DNA of 64,000 nt, taken from an uncultured Spirochaetales bacterium (GTDB lineage Bacteria > Spirochaetota > Spirochaetia > Sphaerochaetales > Sphaerochaetaceae). Below are positions 53,566-64,000 of this stretch, one piece after another (position 1 is the stretch's first letter; each line of letters starts with the position of its first letter). Both the position numbers and the translations under genes were made by a program. The stretch is from contig CASDRU010000018.1 in assembly GCA_949283305.1 (NCBI GenBank), forward strand, positions 62,001 to 126,000, in the 5' to 3' direction. Under the pieces are notes generated by a model that worked only from the letters and a program-made list of their open reading frames with translations, was not told the DNA's origin and ran no database searches.

Positions 53566-53590
53566 CACCTCGAAAGAGGTGTTTTTTTTT
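53566..53590 (+). terminator. Intrinsic terminator of rpsU
   Basis: CACCTC/GAGGTG with GAAA tetraloop, then nine T residues. Confidence 0.92.
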
Positions 53591-53630
53591 CGTCCAATGC
53601 AATGATAAAACAATTAATTTTCAACTTTTT

Positions 53631-57774: not shown

Positions 57775-58109
57775 TTGCTCTGTTTCTTTCCATTTTGCTG
57801 ATTTCCTGTCAGAGCAAAGAGTACACAGCCCTGATGAGGAACCTTGAGAAGACTGCTGACGGGGTATACCTCATTTCCTTCATGATAAGCGGAAGTGAGG
57901 ATTATTATTTTACCCTCACATCCCCATCTGGAATCCTTTCATGGTCCGGAATGCTTGAAAATGAGGGAGAAGATTTCTTTTCAGCCCAGATAAGGATCAC
58001 AGAAGGCGCAGTCCTGCTTGACGGTGTGTACAAATGGGAAATAATATCATCAGATGGCGTTGAAAGCAGCGGAGAATACTTATTTCGTTCTCCCGACCAG
58101 ACGCTTTAG
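57759..58109 (+). CDS. Small lipoprotein, unknown function
   Basis: 116 residues with signal peptide and lipobox LLISCQSK. The mature part is probably a small beta-sandwich (VYLISFMISGSEDYYFTLTSPSG). No family recognised. It overlaps the acyltransferase by 16 bp and the opposing mutL 3' end by 30 bp. Confidence 0.65.
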   Translation: MRKTLIALFLSILLISCQSKEYTALMRNLEKTADGVYLISFMISGSEDYYFTLTSPSGILSWSGMLENEGEDFFSAQIRITEGAVLLDGVYKWEIISSDGVESSGEYLFRSPDQTL

Positions 58110-59882
58110 CTCATCATCAGATATCTTTGCAAGGAATGTCCTTCCATGAGGACATGACGGAGAATCAAGGAGCAGTGTCTTCTCAATAAGGGATTCGGCT
58201 GTGCATCGGTCGACTTCATCTCCCTGCTTTATGGCGGCCTTGCATGCAACAATTGCAAAAATATCTGCCTCTATTTTCTTTTCATCTGCAACTGTGCTCT
58301 CAATATATGATACAATCCTGTCTTCCGTTGATCTCATGCTGGAAGGAAGCTCTGTGATGAAGAACTTTCCATCCTTCTTCTCAATCTTTATTCCGATGCT
58401 GCTGTAGATCTCGATGTTCTTTTCAAGAAAGCTCTCTGCATCCTTTTCAAGATCAAGAGCAAGAGGAATCAGAAGTTTCTGTATGCTCTTTTTTGCTTTG
58501 ATCTCTTCATAAAGTATTCTTTCATGCGCTGCATGCTGATCAAGAAAATAAAGCTCATCTCCTGATGTGAAGATAAGAAAGAGCTTGAAAGCCTGCCCGA
58601 TATATTCAAATTCAAGCTCTTTCTTCTCTTCCTTGTTTTCCTTCTTCTCGTCCTTCATCCTCTTCAGTTCCCGTGCCTGTTCTATCCATGAAGGATCTTC
58701 GGGACGCTCTGTTTTCCGCACATCTTTCTCTTTCTCATCCGTGCTTTTCTGATGTGGCATAAAGCTTCTATAGTTTTCCCTGTGCTCAAAGAAATGAGAG
58801 CGGTCTTTGTTTTCAGAGCCTGTCCTGAGATAGCTGTCATTATCAAAAAGAAGGGGATTCTGCTCTTCCTTCAGAGTAATCTTCGGTATTTTCCTCTCTA
58901 TGCCGTTTTGAATAAGAAGCACTATTGCGTGATGTATATCGCCTATGTTCCTTATCTTAACTTCTTTTTTTGCTGGATGGATATTGAAGTCAACAAGCTC
59001 AGCCTTGTCATTTATGAAGACTGCGGCAACAGGGAATGTTCCTCCTGGAAGAAGCTCCCCATAGCCGTAAATGACAGCCTGTACAAGGGAGTATTCATCA
59101 ACCTGACGGTTGTTTACATATATTCTTATTTCCTTCCTGTCGCTTCTTTTCACTCCGCTGTTTCCTGCTATGATGTCAATTGTAAAATCATCACTTTTAG
59201 TTCTCAGATGCAGAACATCAGCATCAGCAATTCCCATAGGGCGGTAGAGCATCATCATTCTTTCTTTCAGACTCTGGCACTTTTCAAACCTTACCTTGAG
59301 TGCTCCGTCTGAATAGAACCAGAATGATCTGTCAAAAAATGGCAGTGCCTTTGATATGAATGTCTTCTGGCATAATGATGATTCTGTCTGCGGCCTCTTC
59401 AAAAATGCTCTTCTAGCAGGAAGAGAGGCAAAAAGATCCTCGCTTTTAACTCTTGTGCCTTTTTCAAGAGCAGATGGCATGATCTCTGAGCGTGAAAGGT
59501 TATCTATTACAATCTCATTTGCTTTTTTCTCATCGCTGTCGAATGATGATATTGTAAGCCTGCTTACAGCACTGATGGAGTAGAGAGCTTCACCTCTGAA
59601 TCCGAGAGTGGTTATGTTATATAGATCATCTCCAGTTTTTATCTTGCTTGTCGCATGATCGTTTGCAATAAGAGAAAGGTCCGCTTTTTTAATTCCTTCC
59701 CCGTCATCCTGGACAGAAACCTCGTCAATTCCTCCTCCTTCAATGGAGCATGTGATGTTTACTGCTCCCGAATCCAGAGCATTGTCAAGGAACTCGCGGA
59801 GGATTGACTCCGGACGCTCAACAACTTCTCCTGCTGCTATGCGGGAGGCAACCAGTGAATCCAGTATGTTTATCTTTCCCAT
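58080..59882 (-). CDS. mutL: DNA mismatch repair protein MutL, endonuclease-type
   Basis: 600 residues. The GHKL ATPase domain has RIAAGEVVERPESILREFLDNALDSGA, DDGEGI and ATSKIKTGDDLYNITTLGFRGEAL. A low-complexity charged linker (about residues 370-420) precedes the C-terminal dimer domain with DQHAAHERILYEE, the metal-binding endonuclease motif, and CPHGRTF. It nicks the strand in mismatch repair without MutH. Its start shares one base with the barrel frame stop upstream. Confidence 0.95.
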   Translation of the reverse strand: MGKINILDSLVASRIAAGEVVERPESILREFLDNALDSGAVNITCSIEGGGIDEVSVQDDGEGIKKADLSLIANDHATSKIKTGDDLYNITTLGFRGEALYSISAVSRLTISSFDSDEKKANEIVIDNLSRSEIMPSALEKGTRVKSEDLFASLPARRAFLKRPQTESSLCQKTFISKALPFFDRSFWFYSDGALKVRFEKCQSLKERMMMLYRPMGIADADVLHLRTKSDDFTIDIIAGNSGVKRSDRKEIRIYVNNRQVDEYSLVQAVIYGYGELLPGGTFPVAAVFINDKAELVDFNIHPAKKEVKIRNIGDIHHAIVLLIQNGIERKIPKITLKEEQNPLLFDNDSYLRTGSENKDRSHFFEHRENYRSFMPHQKSTDEKEKDVRKTERPEDPSWIEQARELKRMKDEKKENKEEKKELEFEYIGQAFKLFLIFTSGDELYFLDQHAAHERILYEEIKAKKSIQKLLIPLALDLEKDAESFLEKNIEIYSSIGIKIEKKDGKFFITELPSSMRSTEDRIVSYIESTVADEKKIEADIFAIVACKAAIKQGDEVDRCTAESLIEKTLLLDSPSCPHGRTFLAKISDDELKRLVGRTK

Positions 59883-62230
59883 CAGAATCCCATCCTTGTC
59901 ATTATGCTGAAAAGAGGCTGTACTTCCTTCAGTTTATAAATGTTAGCATAAGAATCGTCTTTTTCGTAGATTCCTCCGCTCTCAAGGGCAAGTGACAGCT
60001 CGATATTCTCCCATTTCTTGATAAGTGATACAGAATAGATCGTATCGCTGCTTAAGAAGTATGTGCTGTAATTGATAATCTCATCCAAACTTGATATAAA
60101 GCCCTTTCTTGCAATGGAGAAATCGAGACCTATTCCGTTTCTCAGTGTGAAAGACAGTGAAAGAGAGAGTATGTCTTCATCATAAGAAGAGAAAGAGGAG
60201 AATAGTGAGATTATATCTGTAAGAGAGTATTTGAGAGTGAAGTCCACATTCTCAAAATCGAGGATAAGCTTTATCTGGCTGTAGAATGTGTTTCCTTCAG
60301 TGTCATCGAAAACAGAAGTCTCATGTCCCGGTGCAGGATTCATTGCACTGAAAGCGTTGTAGATTGCTGGCCTTATTCGTCCTGCATGAAGGCCAAGAGA
60401 GAATGAAAAATCGATATTCTCGTTGTGCCAGTTTATCTCGCTGCCCGCTAGATATCCAAAGAGCTTTTCCTTTTCCGTATCATAGATGATTCTTATGTTC
60501 TCTGCCTTTCCGTCAACATAGTCCACATGAAGTTCCCCAAAAAGGAACAGGCTGAGAGCAAGTTCTTCTGTAAGTATCTGCTTGTATGTAAGTCCTGCAA
60601 ATGTCGTAAGACTGTAGTTCTTCTCATCCTTGATTGTAAGTGATGACGGAGCAGAGAGGATCACTCCGCTTCCATCGCTGGAGAACGGGTAGAAGCCAAT
60701 TTCAGCATTGAATATCCTGATGTTCTCAAGGTCATCGGCATAAAAAGAAAGAGACATGTTCTGGAACGATACTCTGGCATTGAGAGAAAGAGAATTGTAT
60801 GAGGAGTAGTTGTCAAAGAACACATTGTTTGTCTTCTCATCCCTTGATGCTCTGATATATGTCATTTCAACCTCACTTGAAAGAGAGAATCCTTCAATGA
60901 ATGTAAATACATCTGAAATAGAATCAAAGATATCAGAAAAGTCATCATAGCTTTCTTTCACTATGTCAAAATTGCTGTCTCCCTTGTCATGATAAAGATA
61001 GAACTCGTTATCAGAGATGCTGTATCTGAGCGGAAGACGGAGCGAAAAGTAATTGTTTTCCCCACCGATTCTCATAACCGGTGTCGTATTGAAATATACA
61101 CTGTCTTTAAAGCTTGTGATCCCCAGGTTTATGTAGAAATCAAATAATCTGCTTTCCGTATTCTCAACCACATTGTCTATATCAATCAAGGCAAGCCTTG
61201 TCATGAATCCTATTGCTGGCCTGCCTTTTAGCATCTTGAGCGTGAATTCAGTTAGAAGGGATCCGCTCTGTGTCTCAAGGGATATATAGAAATCTGATGA
61301 TTTCAGGAACTCAGAATATGAGAAGAGATTATCCTTCTTCACTCCAATCTTTAAAGATGTGTTTCCCAGCGCTGCTCTGATTGATGCATCCACAAATGAC
61401 TGCTCAGGAAGGAGTGAGAAATTCTCATCAAAGCCCATGAAGGATGAGAATGTGAAATCGAAAAGCGGAGATTTCATGGTGGATGTGAGGAAAAGGGTGT
61501 ACCCGTCTTCTGGCTCTGCGCTGTAGCTTTCATTGAACATGTTGTAGCTGACTTCTCCTTTCTTATACATCATTCCCATGTTCATGAAATTGAGACGGTA
61601 AGAAAGAGGAAGTGAGACGTAGTAGGCATAATTTGTACGGCTGTCCATTCCATCAGCTATTGCACTTATATATCCTGCCCTGAGCGCTATATCAAGTTCA
61701 TCTGTCCTATAGAAGGAAAGAGAAGCATAAAGGGAGGGATAGTATGAATAGCTTCCGTTTTCAAAATCAGCATAGCTGAGCATGTTTAATCCAACAGACA
61801 AAGGTGAAAGCGGCATGACTGAGACATCAGCGCCGTAGAGAAGGGAGTAGTCTGTAAATGAGATATCAGGGGAAAATAGACGTAAAGAGAACCGTTCAGT
61901 TCGTACATCAAGATTCAGAGAAAGCTTCTCTTCTATGTTTTCCCATTTATGATCTGTGATGCTCATCAGACCAGATGTGTCCTGACGGAGCGTGGAACTT
62001 CTGTCGATGAAGAAATCAAAGCTCCTGTTATCCGTGTATTTTATTTCTTCAATAAATGAGAAAGCATAGGAGAGAATGTTCTGGACATTCTTTTCTTTCC
62101 ATGCAATTTCTGTGATTTTCAGTGCATTGAGAGAAAGGGCAAGAGAAAACCTACCGGCATAAAAAACAGGAACCAGAGATATTTCATTATATCCCTCGTT
62201 CCCGTCCTGATATGATTTGGTTTTTATCAA
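59882..62230 (-). CDS. Large outer-membrane beta-barrel frame, probably the C-terminal part of a frameshifted protein
   Basis: 782 codons of repeated aromatic strands (FSFSLGLHAGRIRPAIYNAFSAM-like, GVILSAPSSLTIKDEKNYSLT) ending GMGF, typical of a barrel. The frame has no signal peptide. Its only plausible starter is TTG 62230, with no ribosome binding site and a 4-bp overlap with the FecR-type gene. The frame stays open upstream into that gene, in the -1 position relative to it, back past the A run at 62250-62258. It is therefore most likely the continuation of that protein by frameshift. mutL follows with 1-bp overlap. Confidence 0.7.
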   Translation of the reverse strand: MIKTKSYQDGNEGYNEISLVPVFYAGRFSLALSLNALKITEIAWKEKNVQNILSYAFSFIEEIKYTDNRSFDFFIDRSSTLRQDTSGLMSITDHKWENIEEKLSLNLDVRTERFSLRLFSPDISFTDYSLLYGADVSVMPLSPLSVGLNMLSYADFENGSYSYYPSLYASLSFYRTDELDIALRAGYISAIADGMDSRTNYAYYVSLPLSYRLNFMNMGMMYKKGEVSYNMFNESYSAEPEDGYTLFLTSTMKSPLFDFTFSSFMGFDENFSLLPEQSFVDASIRAALGNTSLKIGVKKDNLFSYSEFLKSSDFYISLETQSGSLLTEFTLKMLKGRPAIGFMTRLALIDIDNVVENTESRLFDFYINLGITSFKDSVYFNTTPVMRIGGENNYFSLRLPLRYSISDNEFYLYHDKGDSNFDIVKESYDDFSDIFDSISDVFTFIEGFSLSSEVEMTYIRASRDEKTNNVFFDNYSSYNSLSLNARVSFQNMSLSFYADDLENIRIFNAEIGFYPFSSDGSGVILSAPSSLTIKDEKNYSLTTFAGLTYKQILTEELALSLFLFGELHVDYVDGKAENIRIIYDTEKEKLFGYLAGSEINWHNENIDFSFSLGLHAGRIRPAIYNAFSAMNPAPGHETSVFDDTEGNTFYSQIKLILDFENVDFTLKYSLTDIISLFSSFSSYDEDILSLSLSFTLRNGIGLDFSIARKGFISSLDEIINYSTYFLSSDTIYSVSLIKKWENIELSLALESGGIYEKDDSYANIYKLKEVQPLFSIMTRMGF

Positions 62231-63543
62231 TAAGTCAAATTTGAATCTGTTTTTTTTTCGACATCAACTGTCACAACCGGTGCAAGGAGACCGCCAACAG
62301 GTGTGACTGTAACAGATGAGAATTTCACAGGAAGCGGTGAAAGTGAAAGGCCTGGAGCAACTTCGACTGCAAAAAAGAGCGGAGCATCCGGAATATCCTT
62401 TCTTCCCTCAAGTGTGCTTGTGTATGTAATCATTGGAGCTGTAGGCACTGCTTCTTTAAGCATTTCTCTCTTCGGCTCAAGGAATGATGGAGCATCCGGT
62501 GTGACTATCAGCTCTGATGATACTGCTTCAAGAACAGCAGCAGACGGAACAGGAATCTTCTCCTCCTCCGGCATTTCAACTGTAACTGTCATCTCAGGAG
62601 CTGCTGGCACTTCAGGCACCTCAGGCTCTTCAACAGTTGCAGTCATCTCAGGAGCTGCTGGCACTTCAGGCACCTCAGGCTCTTCAACAGTTGCAGTCAT
62701 CTCAGGAGCTGTTGGCACTTCAGGCACCTCAGGCTCTTCAACAGTTGCTGTCATTTCAGGAGCTGTTGGCACTTCAGGCACCTCAGGCTCTTCAACAGTT
62801 GCAGTCATCTCAGGAGCTGTTGGCACCTCAGGTTCTTCAGCTTCTTCAACAGTTGCTGTCATTTCCGGGCTTGTCGGAACTTCTATCTCTTCTAAAACTG
62901 CAGGCTCTTCAGCTTCTTCCTCTGCCGGAGCTTCTGTTGGCTCGGCTTCTACAGGAGCATTCTTCTTTTCGTAATAAGATGAGATGAAGCTGTTGCTGTA
63001 GCGTGCCTCACTTTCATACTGGGAGAAACTGATAACATTATCATGCCCTGTAAGGATATCTGAACTTGAAAGCCAGTCAACCTGCTTCAGCTCTCCAAGA
63101 AGGGAGTCCACATAAAGTGCGCTTCCTGCAGAATAGTTAAAGAAAGCTTCCTCACTTTCTGTTGAGACAATCCTGTATTCTCCTTTTGAGTACATTCCAG
63201 CAAGAGCAACCGGTGTATATATGTTTAAATCAGCCTTGCCAAGCAGGTTTACTCTTGCTTCTCCGTTGACAAGATAGAGCTCTGCCTTGTCCTGTGTCCA
63301 GGAAAGCACTGTAATAAGAGATCCTTCATTTAAAAGGATATCGCCGAATGGACAGTTGAATGTCACATCCTCATCTGCATAGATGATCAGACCTGTGTAA
63401 TCTGTAACAGTGTTTATGTCCACGCTTGTACCATATTCATCAAAGAGGCGGATATTGCTTGTGGAGACAGTTACATATGAGGACGCGAAAAGTCCTGCAA
63501 CTGCCAAAAGCATGATTAGAAATAAACTTAATTTCTTTTTCAT
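62227..63543 (-). CDS. Exported FecR-domain protein with tandem Pro/Glu repeats
   Basis: 438 residues. Signal peptide (LSLFLIMLLAVAGLFASS), then a FecR/LysM-like beta domain of about 150 residues (GDILLNEGSLITVLSWTQDK, ARVNLLGKADLNIYTPVALAG), a charged Glu/Ala/Pro linker, and six 18-residue repeats of VPxxPEMTxTVEEPEVPE, then a Pro/Val-rich end. AAGAGG precedes the ATG. The stop comes 24 nt after a nine-A run. A -1 shift at that run would read straight into the downstream barrel frame to make about 1,220 residues. Function unknown; it could be a surface or anchoring protein. Confidence 0.72.
   Translation of the reverse strand: MKKKLSLFLIMLLAVAGLFASSYVTVSTSNIRLFDEYGTSVDINTVTDYTGLIIYADEDVTFNCPFGDILLNEGSLITVLSWTQDKAELYLVNGEARVNLLGKADLNIYTPVALAGMYSKGEYRIVSTESEEAFFNYSAGSALYVDSLLGELKQVDWLSSSDILTGHDNVISFSQYESEARYSNSFISSYYEKKNAPVEAEPTEAPAEEEAEEPAVLEEIEVPTSPEMTATVEEAEEPEVPTAPEMTATVEEPEVPEVPTAPEMTATVEEPEVPEVPTAPEMTATVEEPEVPEVPAAPEMTATVEEPEVPEVPAAPEMTVTVEMPEEEKIPVPSAAVLEAVSSELIVTPDAPSFLEPKREMLKEAVPTAPMITYTSTLEGRKDIPDAPLFFAVEVAPGLSLSPLPVKFSSVTVTPVGGLLAPVVTVDVEKKTDSNLTY
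62250..62258 (-). other. Nine-A run with in-frame A_AAA_AAA slippery heptamer
   Basis: On the minus strand the reading frame is GTC GAA AAA AAA ACA. A -1 shift gives AAC AGA TTC and then continues into the barrel frame. I see no convincing downstream pseudoknot or upstream Shine-Dalgarno-like stimulator by eye. Confidence 0.6.
62557..62880. repeat. Tandem array of six 54-bp repeats in the FecR-type gene
   Basis: Unit boundaries on the plus strand are every 54 bp from 62557 to 62880. The central copies differ at only a few bases; two are nearly identical. In protein they encode VPxxPEMTxTVEEPEVPE. Confidence 0.92.
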
Positions 63544-63602: not shown

Positions 63603-64000
63603 TTATTGGTCCTTTTTGCATTCTTTGAAAGGATTTTCCAGCTCAAGAGATGAATATATATGCTCTCTTGTGAGCTTATCAAGATGAGAAAGAGAGCTGA
63701 CAATGGGCTTGAGCCTTGCTCTGACATTGCTCTGGTCATATGGGCATACGGGCTTTACAACAGGCAGATCATAGCATTCTGCCAGTCGCCTGATGGCACT
63801 TTCATGAACCTGTATCATAGGTCTTATGACATACAGCTTTCCATCAAAGAATTCCTGTACCGCCTGCATGGGTGCGAAATTTGCCCTGAAGCACAGGTTC
63901 ATAAGAACTGTCTCCACCAGATCATCAAGATGATGACCCATCGCAATCTTTTTTATTCCCATTCTGTCAGCGTAGGAAAACAGGATTCTTCTTCTGTTCC
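63603..64000 (-). CDS. TtcA-family PP-loop ATPase, 5' partial
   Basis: 132 codons to the window edge, the C-terminal part. The frame continues upstream of ATG 63962 through the edge. IKKIAMGHHLDDLVETVLMNL is the TtcA/TilS-like conserved segment following the PP-loop, FAPMQAV and RPMIQVHESAIRRLAE follow, and PVCPYDQSNVRARLKPIV supplies a likely cysteine of the 2-thiocytidine enzymes. The nucleotide PP-loop lies outside the window. It probably thiolates cytidine 32 in tRNA. Confidence 0.8.
   Translation of the reverse strand, partial: NRRRILFSYADRMGIKKIAMGHHLDDLVETVLMNLCFRANFAPMQAVQEFFDGKLYVIRPMIQVHESAIRRLAECYDLPVVKPVCPYDQSNVRARLKPIVSSLSHLDKLTREHIYSSLELENPFKECKKDQ

Follow-up and report, generated by a model that had tools for sequence, protein, structure and literature searches.

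A gene of an uncultured Spirochaetales bacterium is predicted to encode a pair of exported proteins by means of programmed slippage on a run of nine A's (A9), a short protein that stops just past the run and a long one in which the same N-terminal part continues, in the -1 frame, into an outer-membrane-barrel-like half. We assign this reading a probability of about 0.88. Comparison of related genomes, at the level of their sequences, establishes the conservation of A9, the frame relation across it, the continuity of the alignment through the junction, and selection on the barrel half. The window, by which we mean the whole stretch of DNA analysed, comprises 64,000 nucleotides of a 1.49-Mb draft genome in 22 contigs. 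A sequence-only reading of the window had raised three explanations, one of them programmed slippage that fuses the frames into a single exported protein; comparison strongly supports this one, and the two alternatives offered beside it, phase variation and an assembly indel, did not survive.

Two reading frames meet at a run of nine A's

The features of the locus are collected in Table 1. The upstream open reading frame ends just 3' of A9, and this end defines the predicted short product (438 aa). As the sequence-only reading had proposed, the upstream gene stops shortly past a nine-A run whose zero-frame reading includes A_AAA_AAA, and the barrel frame, at -1, stays open through the run, extending from just 5' of it (62257) to 59882. 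Its further observation that this downstream half lacks both a signal peptide and a Shine-Dalgarno site was also borne out on the sequence, the only start near the beginning of the barrel frame being an overlapping TTG (62230). A -1 shift at A9 gives a single protein of 1220 residues, close to the figure first estimated, which reads ...VEKKN-RFKFD... across the slip and has the junction VTVDVEKKNRFK.

Table 1. Features of the locus in the window
Feature	Position	Strand	Description
Upstream zero-frame ORF	63543..62227	minus	438 aa, begins MKKKLSLFLIMLLAVAGLFASS; signal peptide, conserved all-beta domain (weakly FecR-like) and Pro/Glu-rich repeat linker
54-bp tandem repeats	62588..62862	minus	5.1 copies; encode linker repeat VPxAPEMTATVEEPEVPE
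Putative slip site, nine A's	62258..62250	minus	zero frame GAA AAA AAA ACA; C after the run
Zero-frame stop TGA	62229..62227	minus	ends 23 nt past A9
-1 frame, outer-membrane-barrel-like half	62257..59882	minus	ends LFSIMTRMGF
Terminator-like hairpin	62161..62204	minus	CGGGAACGAGGGATAT-loop-ATATCTCTGGTTCCTG then TTTTTT; in barrel frame, 45 nt past the run
mutL	58080..59882	minus	start overlaps barrel stop; next gene in nearly all species examined

The motif GAAAAAAAAAC is present twice in the genome, and its second copy is intergenic: at 53567-53591 of the window, the sole other minus-strand GA9C of the genome lies within a rho-independent terminator, and was ruled out as another slip gene.

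Conservation of the run in two sister genera

The closest relative compared is Candidatus Ornithospirochaeta avicola, to which the genome of the window stands as a sister species; its contig DXHU01000016.1 carries the same arrangement and is 96% identical. In this relative the upstream ORF has 365 aa against 438 aa in the window and the linker is ~73 residues shorter, from which it follows that the repeat copy number changes fast. Among 48 genomes of the genus surveyed, 21 encode the protein in a single fused frame, 11 have it split between two frames, and seven possess the N-terminal domain alone with an adjacent mutL; in the remainder the gene is absent or broken by contig ends. All split species are represented by draft genomes. 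Exactly nine A's are found in each of the 11 split species, in one codon phase (xAA AAA AAA ACN), with the barrel at -1 and the zero-frame stop 2-7 codons past the run. The run is kept while the sequence flanking it diverges, the barrels of different sub-clades of split species being ~33-37% identical. In a MutL tree the split species of the genus form one clade (SH-aLRT 84), beside G058 and two domain-only species. G058 (L064; run at oriented position 2978) also has nine A's, but its barrel lies in the zero frame; there a slip would shorten the protein, which would end within 5-10 codons, reversing the polarity. The barrel has been lost altogether in G001, G014 and others.

From each species' own codon usage, the tripeptide KKN would be written as AAAAAAAAC in only 3-20% of cases, and the product of these expectations over the 11 rows is 10^-11.7, a value that is overstated because the rows are kin. 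The codon AAA accounts for just 24-61% of lysine codons in the split species of the genus, and G059 (53% GC) contains no further six-A run in the three genes. By these figures, the keeping of A9 in all 11 species and the count of GAAAAAAAAAC in the genome, the arrangement is far beyond chance.

The N-terminal domain is present in 118 of 139 genomes of the family. A family tree places the window's genus and genus g21 as sisters, and the outgroups are fused; fused single-frame homologues occur in the examined genera outside these two, complete genomes included. In genus g21, ten species are split and six have the domain only. Five of its ten split species carry nine A's in the other codon phase, xxA AAA AAA AAC (CAG) stop, again with the barrel at -1, and the other five have no A run and retain the -1 split. 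In all of the latter (G148 (L190) and G335, G334, G336 and G337 (L192-L195)) a zero-frame C_CCT_TTC sits 11-21 codons before the stop; this heptamer is absent from the A9 species, and no other of its kind was found near the stop in the five. It is a possible replacement slip site, held as a candidate only because it falls within a conserved Pro-Pro-Phe. Genes for the domain alone, which are stand-alone counterparts of the short product, have appeared in three or more lineages. In genus g122, matches to AAAAAAAAAC...TAG were rejected as this gene; the domain, where found there, is in one long frame.

The clade with the A9 split consists of gut spirochaetes. The sequence-only reading had asked what alleles related genomes carry, and the answer is nine A's with the barrel at -1 in 16 species of two genera.

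Evidence for one protein across the run

The -1 product aligns without a gap through the junction with fused homologues, EKKNRFKFD in the -1 product standing against ERKKNSFSLDF in G058 and ERIKNKLGFD in G012. Every split species keeps 780-800 open barrel codons, and the barrel half has a dN/dS of ~0.07 in the window and of 0.07-0.11 across four species pairs; that of the zero-frame ORF is 0.12 in comparison with the closest relative. Since the barrel has no usable start and no signal peptide and yet evolves with a dN/dS of ~0.07, it would have to be reached by frameshifting.

The slippage that we infer would operate as follows. Most decoding would stop seven codons past the run, giving a short product composed of signal peptide, conserved beta domain and repeat linker, whose likely destination would be the periplasm, as a soluble protein, or the medium. 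In a fraction of cases, one A would be gained, by RNA polymerase realigning on A9 to make an A10 message, or one A would be re-read by the ribosome in a -1 shift, and the slipped reading would continue into a barrel that sits in the outer membrane. The N-terminal domain would thus be both free and barrel-tethered, in a ratio that the run would set.

For the window and its closest relative, in both of which a TTG overlaps the TGA, one might instead propose two genes, with the barrel initiated on its own or re-initiated at that TTG. Against this, the first barrel-frame start in most other split species lies 75-540 nt from the junction, with none near the beginning of the barrel; a Shine-Dalgarno site is lacking, the barrel would be left without a signal peptide, and homology to the fused proteins begins right at the run. 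We consider separate genes very unlikely.

Long homopolymers in surface protein genes are the usual contingency loci, and this run lies inside such a gene, where slipped-strand mispairing could alter its length and turn the barrel on and off within a population. Clusters of the contingency type are listed in PMC3711429. At a contingency locus, tract length varies between relatives and both on and off states are seen, but here the tract measures nine in every one of the 16 species, each time off frame, no species has an A8 or A10 allele, and G058 has nine as well. This invariance contradicts the proposal of phase variation, for which we see only a slight chance. That an ordinary fused gene was broken by an indel in sequencing or assembly, as the fused homologues and the draft state of the genome could suggest, is refuted by 16 independent assemblies in two genera that share A9, the frame relation and a close zero-frame stop, and decay of the barrel half into a pseudogene after a frame break, for which one could cite the relatives that lost the barrel wholly, is refuted by the open codons of all split species and the dN/dS of 0.07.

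The probable level of the proposed slippage

In our judgement RNA-polymerase slippage is the likelier level, ahead of ribosomal slippage. Genes with programmed transcriptional slippage have nine or more A or T at the frame transition; here A9 stands there in 16 species, and all 11 split species of the genus and all five A9 species of the sister genus keep it in one frame relation, the barrel being always at -1. The run is uninterrupted in all 16, with no AAG in it. Among the split species no shared Shine-Dalgarno-like match was found at the right distance upstream, no structure occurs at +5 to +10 past the run, and in the genus there is no folding signal from 0 to +20, the peak lying at +60; neither of the stimulators associated with ribosomal frameshifting, a structure 5-9 nt downstream or a Shine-Dalgarno-like sequence ~10 nt upstream, is therefore seen, and nothing beyond A9 looks needed. 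The exclusive use of an uninterrupted A9 in two codon phases, together with the lack of AAG and of a stimulator at normal spacing, favours RNA-polymerase slippage. In Thermus dnaX a run of nine A's is enough for 50% slippage, and it is at this length that A runs are avoided in many genomes (PMC1088944); a tested nine-A cassette gave 40% frameshifting (PMC3711429).

Programmed ribosomal -1 frameshifting, in which tRNAs re-pair one base back on an unchanged message, is a serious contender of lesser probability. Heptamers of the X_XXY_YYZ type lie in the zero frame, A_AAA_AAA in 16 of 16 A9 species and C_CCT_TTC, before the stop, in the five A9-less species of g21, and hairpins exist downstream. 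Because any A9 contains A_AAA_AAA, ribosomal slippage is compatible with the run; however, seven A's or A_AAA_AAG would suffice for it, whereas an uninterrupted nine is kept in 16 of 16 species and in two phases, the hairpins begin 20-80 nt away rather than 5-9, and no Shine-Dalgarno-like stimulator is shared. The candidate heptamer of the C_CCT_TTC group would point to ribosomal slippage in those species.

Hairpins past the run

Hairpins lie 40-105 nt past the run in nine of ten independent split species but not in 16 fused ones, and are terminator-like in the window's genus. In a post hoc scan from -200 to +1000 around the run, folding was strongest 60-110 nt past it (mean z -2.7), and at the matching place the mean z was -3.1 in split species versus -0.1 in 16 fused ones. 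Judged by synonymous shuffles, which keep the protein sequence, this stretch is on average the most structured of the barrel frame (-2.0, the profile having a mean of -0.2 and an sd of 0.45), and p is 0.002-0.04 in nine of ten independent split species, the exception being G010; the signal is absent in G010 and in G058. An internal mismatch keeps the hairpin of the window (synonymous-shuffle z -3.8, p 0.004) from being flagged by a simple terminator scanner. The stems vary in sequence from one sub-clade to another yet occupy the same stretch, and compensatory changes are apparent by eye (CCCGACA/TGTCGGG versus CCCAACA/TGTTGGG; ATAC/GTAT versus ATCCC/GGGAT). Past the stem, the U tract reads TTTTTT in both the window and its closest relative and 3-6 T of 10 in most others; no U tract follows the sister-genus hairpins of G206 and G218. 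In the domain-only G001 (L070), a textbook intrinsic terminator, AAAGGCGCTTCGGGCGCCTTTTT, is found directly 3' of the stop.

The hairpins are probably terminators that act once translation has stopped, and from their place just past the stop they would then limit transcription of the barrel and of mutL. As the start of mutL overlaps the barrel stop, its transcription may depend on read-through of the barrel. A trailing ribosome can prevent such terminator hairpins from forming (PMC5021804). A more doubtful proposal is frameshift-gated attenuation, in which the A9 slip would decide whether transcription continues as well as which protein is made. Unshifted ribosomes would leave at the stop, the hairpin would form, and transcription would end with the short gene; shifted ribosomes would cover the hairpin and so open the barrel and mutL. 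Frame choice would in that event set the length of the message as well as that of the protein. The analogy is with pyrL/pyrBI attenuation (PMC5021804), where a moving ribosome likewise masks an intrinsic terminator, but there a leader peptide is translated and here the frame would be chosen inside the gene.

Relation to known recoded genes

The closest case is tssM of Citrobacter rodentium, also described in Yersinia pseudotuberculosis (PMC4256274), in which a long A run precedes a premature stop, a frame-shifted fraction yields a longer envelope protein, and neither a Shine-Dalgarno sequence nor a hairpin acts as stimulator; the cell produces and requires both forms (PMC4256274). That gene has A11 and encodes an inner-membrane part of a secretion system, whereas the present one has exactly A9, encodes a predicted exported barrel protein, and keeps its run through deep divergence in a clade. 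The dnaX gene of Thermus thermophilus (PMC1088944, PMC3711429) shares the nine A's and two products with a common N-terminus, but there the unslipped product is long and the slip truncates it, while here the slip would extend; in polarity, G058 resembles Thermus dnaX. Escherichia coli dnaX and IS elements (A_AAA_AAG; PMC3711429, PMC4066793) likewise shift to -1 at an A-rich heptamer, unlike the present gene in having AAG, an upstream Shine-Dalgarno-like sequence and a hairpin at 5-9 nt. Magnesium chelatase and other frameshift clusters (PMC3711429) resemble it in being recoded in some species and fused in others, and differ in the protein concerned and in that domain-only relatives also exist here.

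Neither this gene nor recoding that joins a barrel is described in the portions of the literature consulted. As far as we found, the conserved programmed frameshift would be new both in the gene concerned and in extending over a clade; slippage on A runs is already known. If correct, it would be a new cellular, non-mobile, conserved recoding event that decides between a free and a barrel-tethered exported domain. The clade contains every one of the states (a single fused frame, A9 in either of two phases, A9 of reversed polarity, a candidate heptamer in place of A9, and domain only), so that the origin and turnover of recoding can be tested directly. Automated annotation will list the halves as separate genes or as broken ones.

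Domains of the protein and the upstream neighbour

The N-terminal part had been labelled a FecR domain, a label that falls below the Pfam threshold: FecR (PF04773) scores 13.5 bits against a cut-off of 24, three of 28 members match at E up to 1, and a profile comparison (hhalign) aligned the core with a probability of 11.6%. The likeness to PF04773 proteins is a weak profile similarity in the core (L..G......TP....G); unlike them, the present domain has no GVRGT signature, and it is accompanied by a signal peptide and a barrel where they are inner-membrane anti-sigma factors. No FecR above the cut-off was found in the window's genome or in the genus relatives searched; other spirochaete families have many. 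On profile scores, FecR-like is a weak lead and not a membership. Pfam searches with single sequences of the protein gave no match, PDB profile searches no credible match, and the barrel half no Pfam or PDB sequence match. For the N-terminal domain the single-sequence AlphaFold model had a pLDDT of 61, for the barrel one of 33, and a fold search with the model returned nothing significant, PupR being a weak suggestion only.

An aromatic C-terminus with alternating hydrophobic residues is the signal, termed the BamA signal, for insertion of outer-membrane barrels. A C-terminal F is present in 30 of 32 homologues, with the alternating pattern and the conserved signature ...R[IVMFL].F. The predicted barrel identity rests on this C-terminal signature and on homology, not on a fold. 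The domain order, thought at first to be new, is not new because it is the fused architecture of the family, which single-frame homologues fill. Upstream of the locus, at 63603-63998 on the minus strand, lies a PP-loop ATPase gene (PF01171), and what appears to be its counterpart stands before the domain gene in the sister genus as well.
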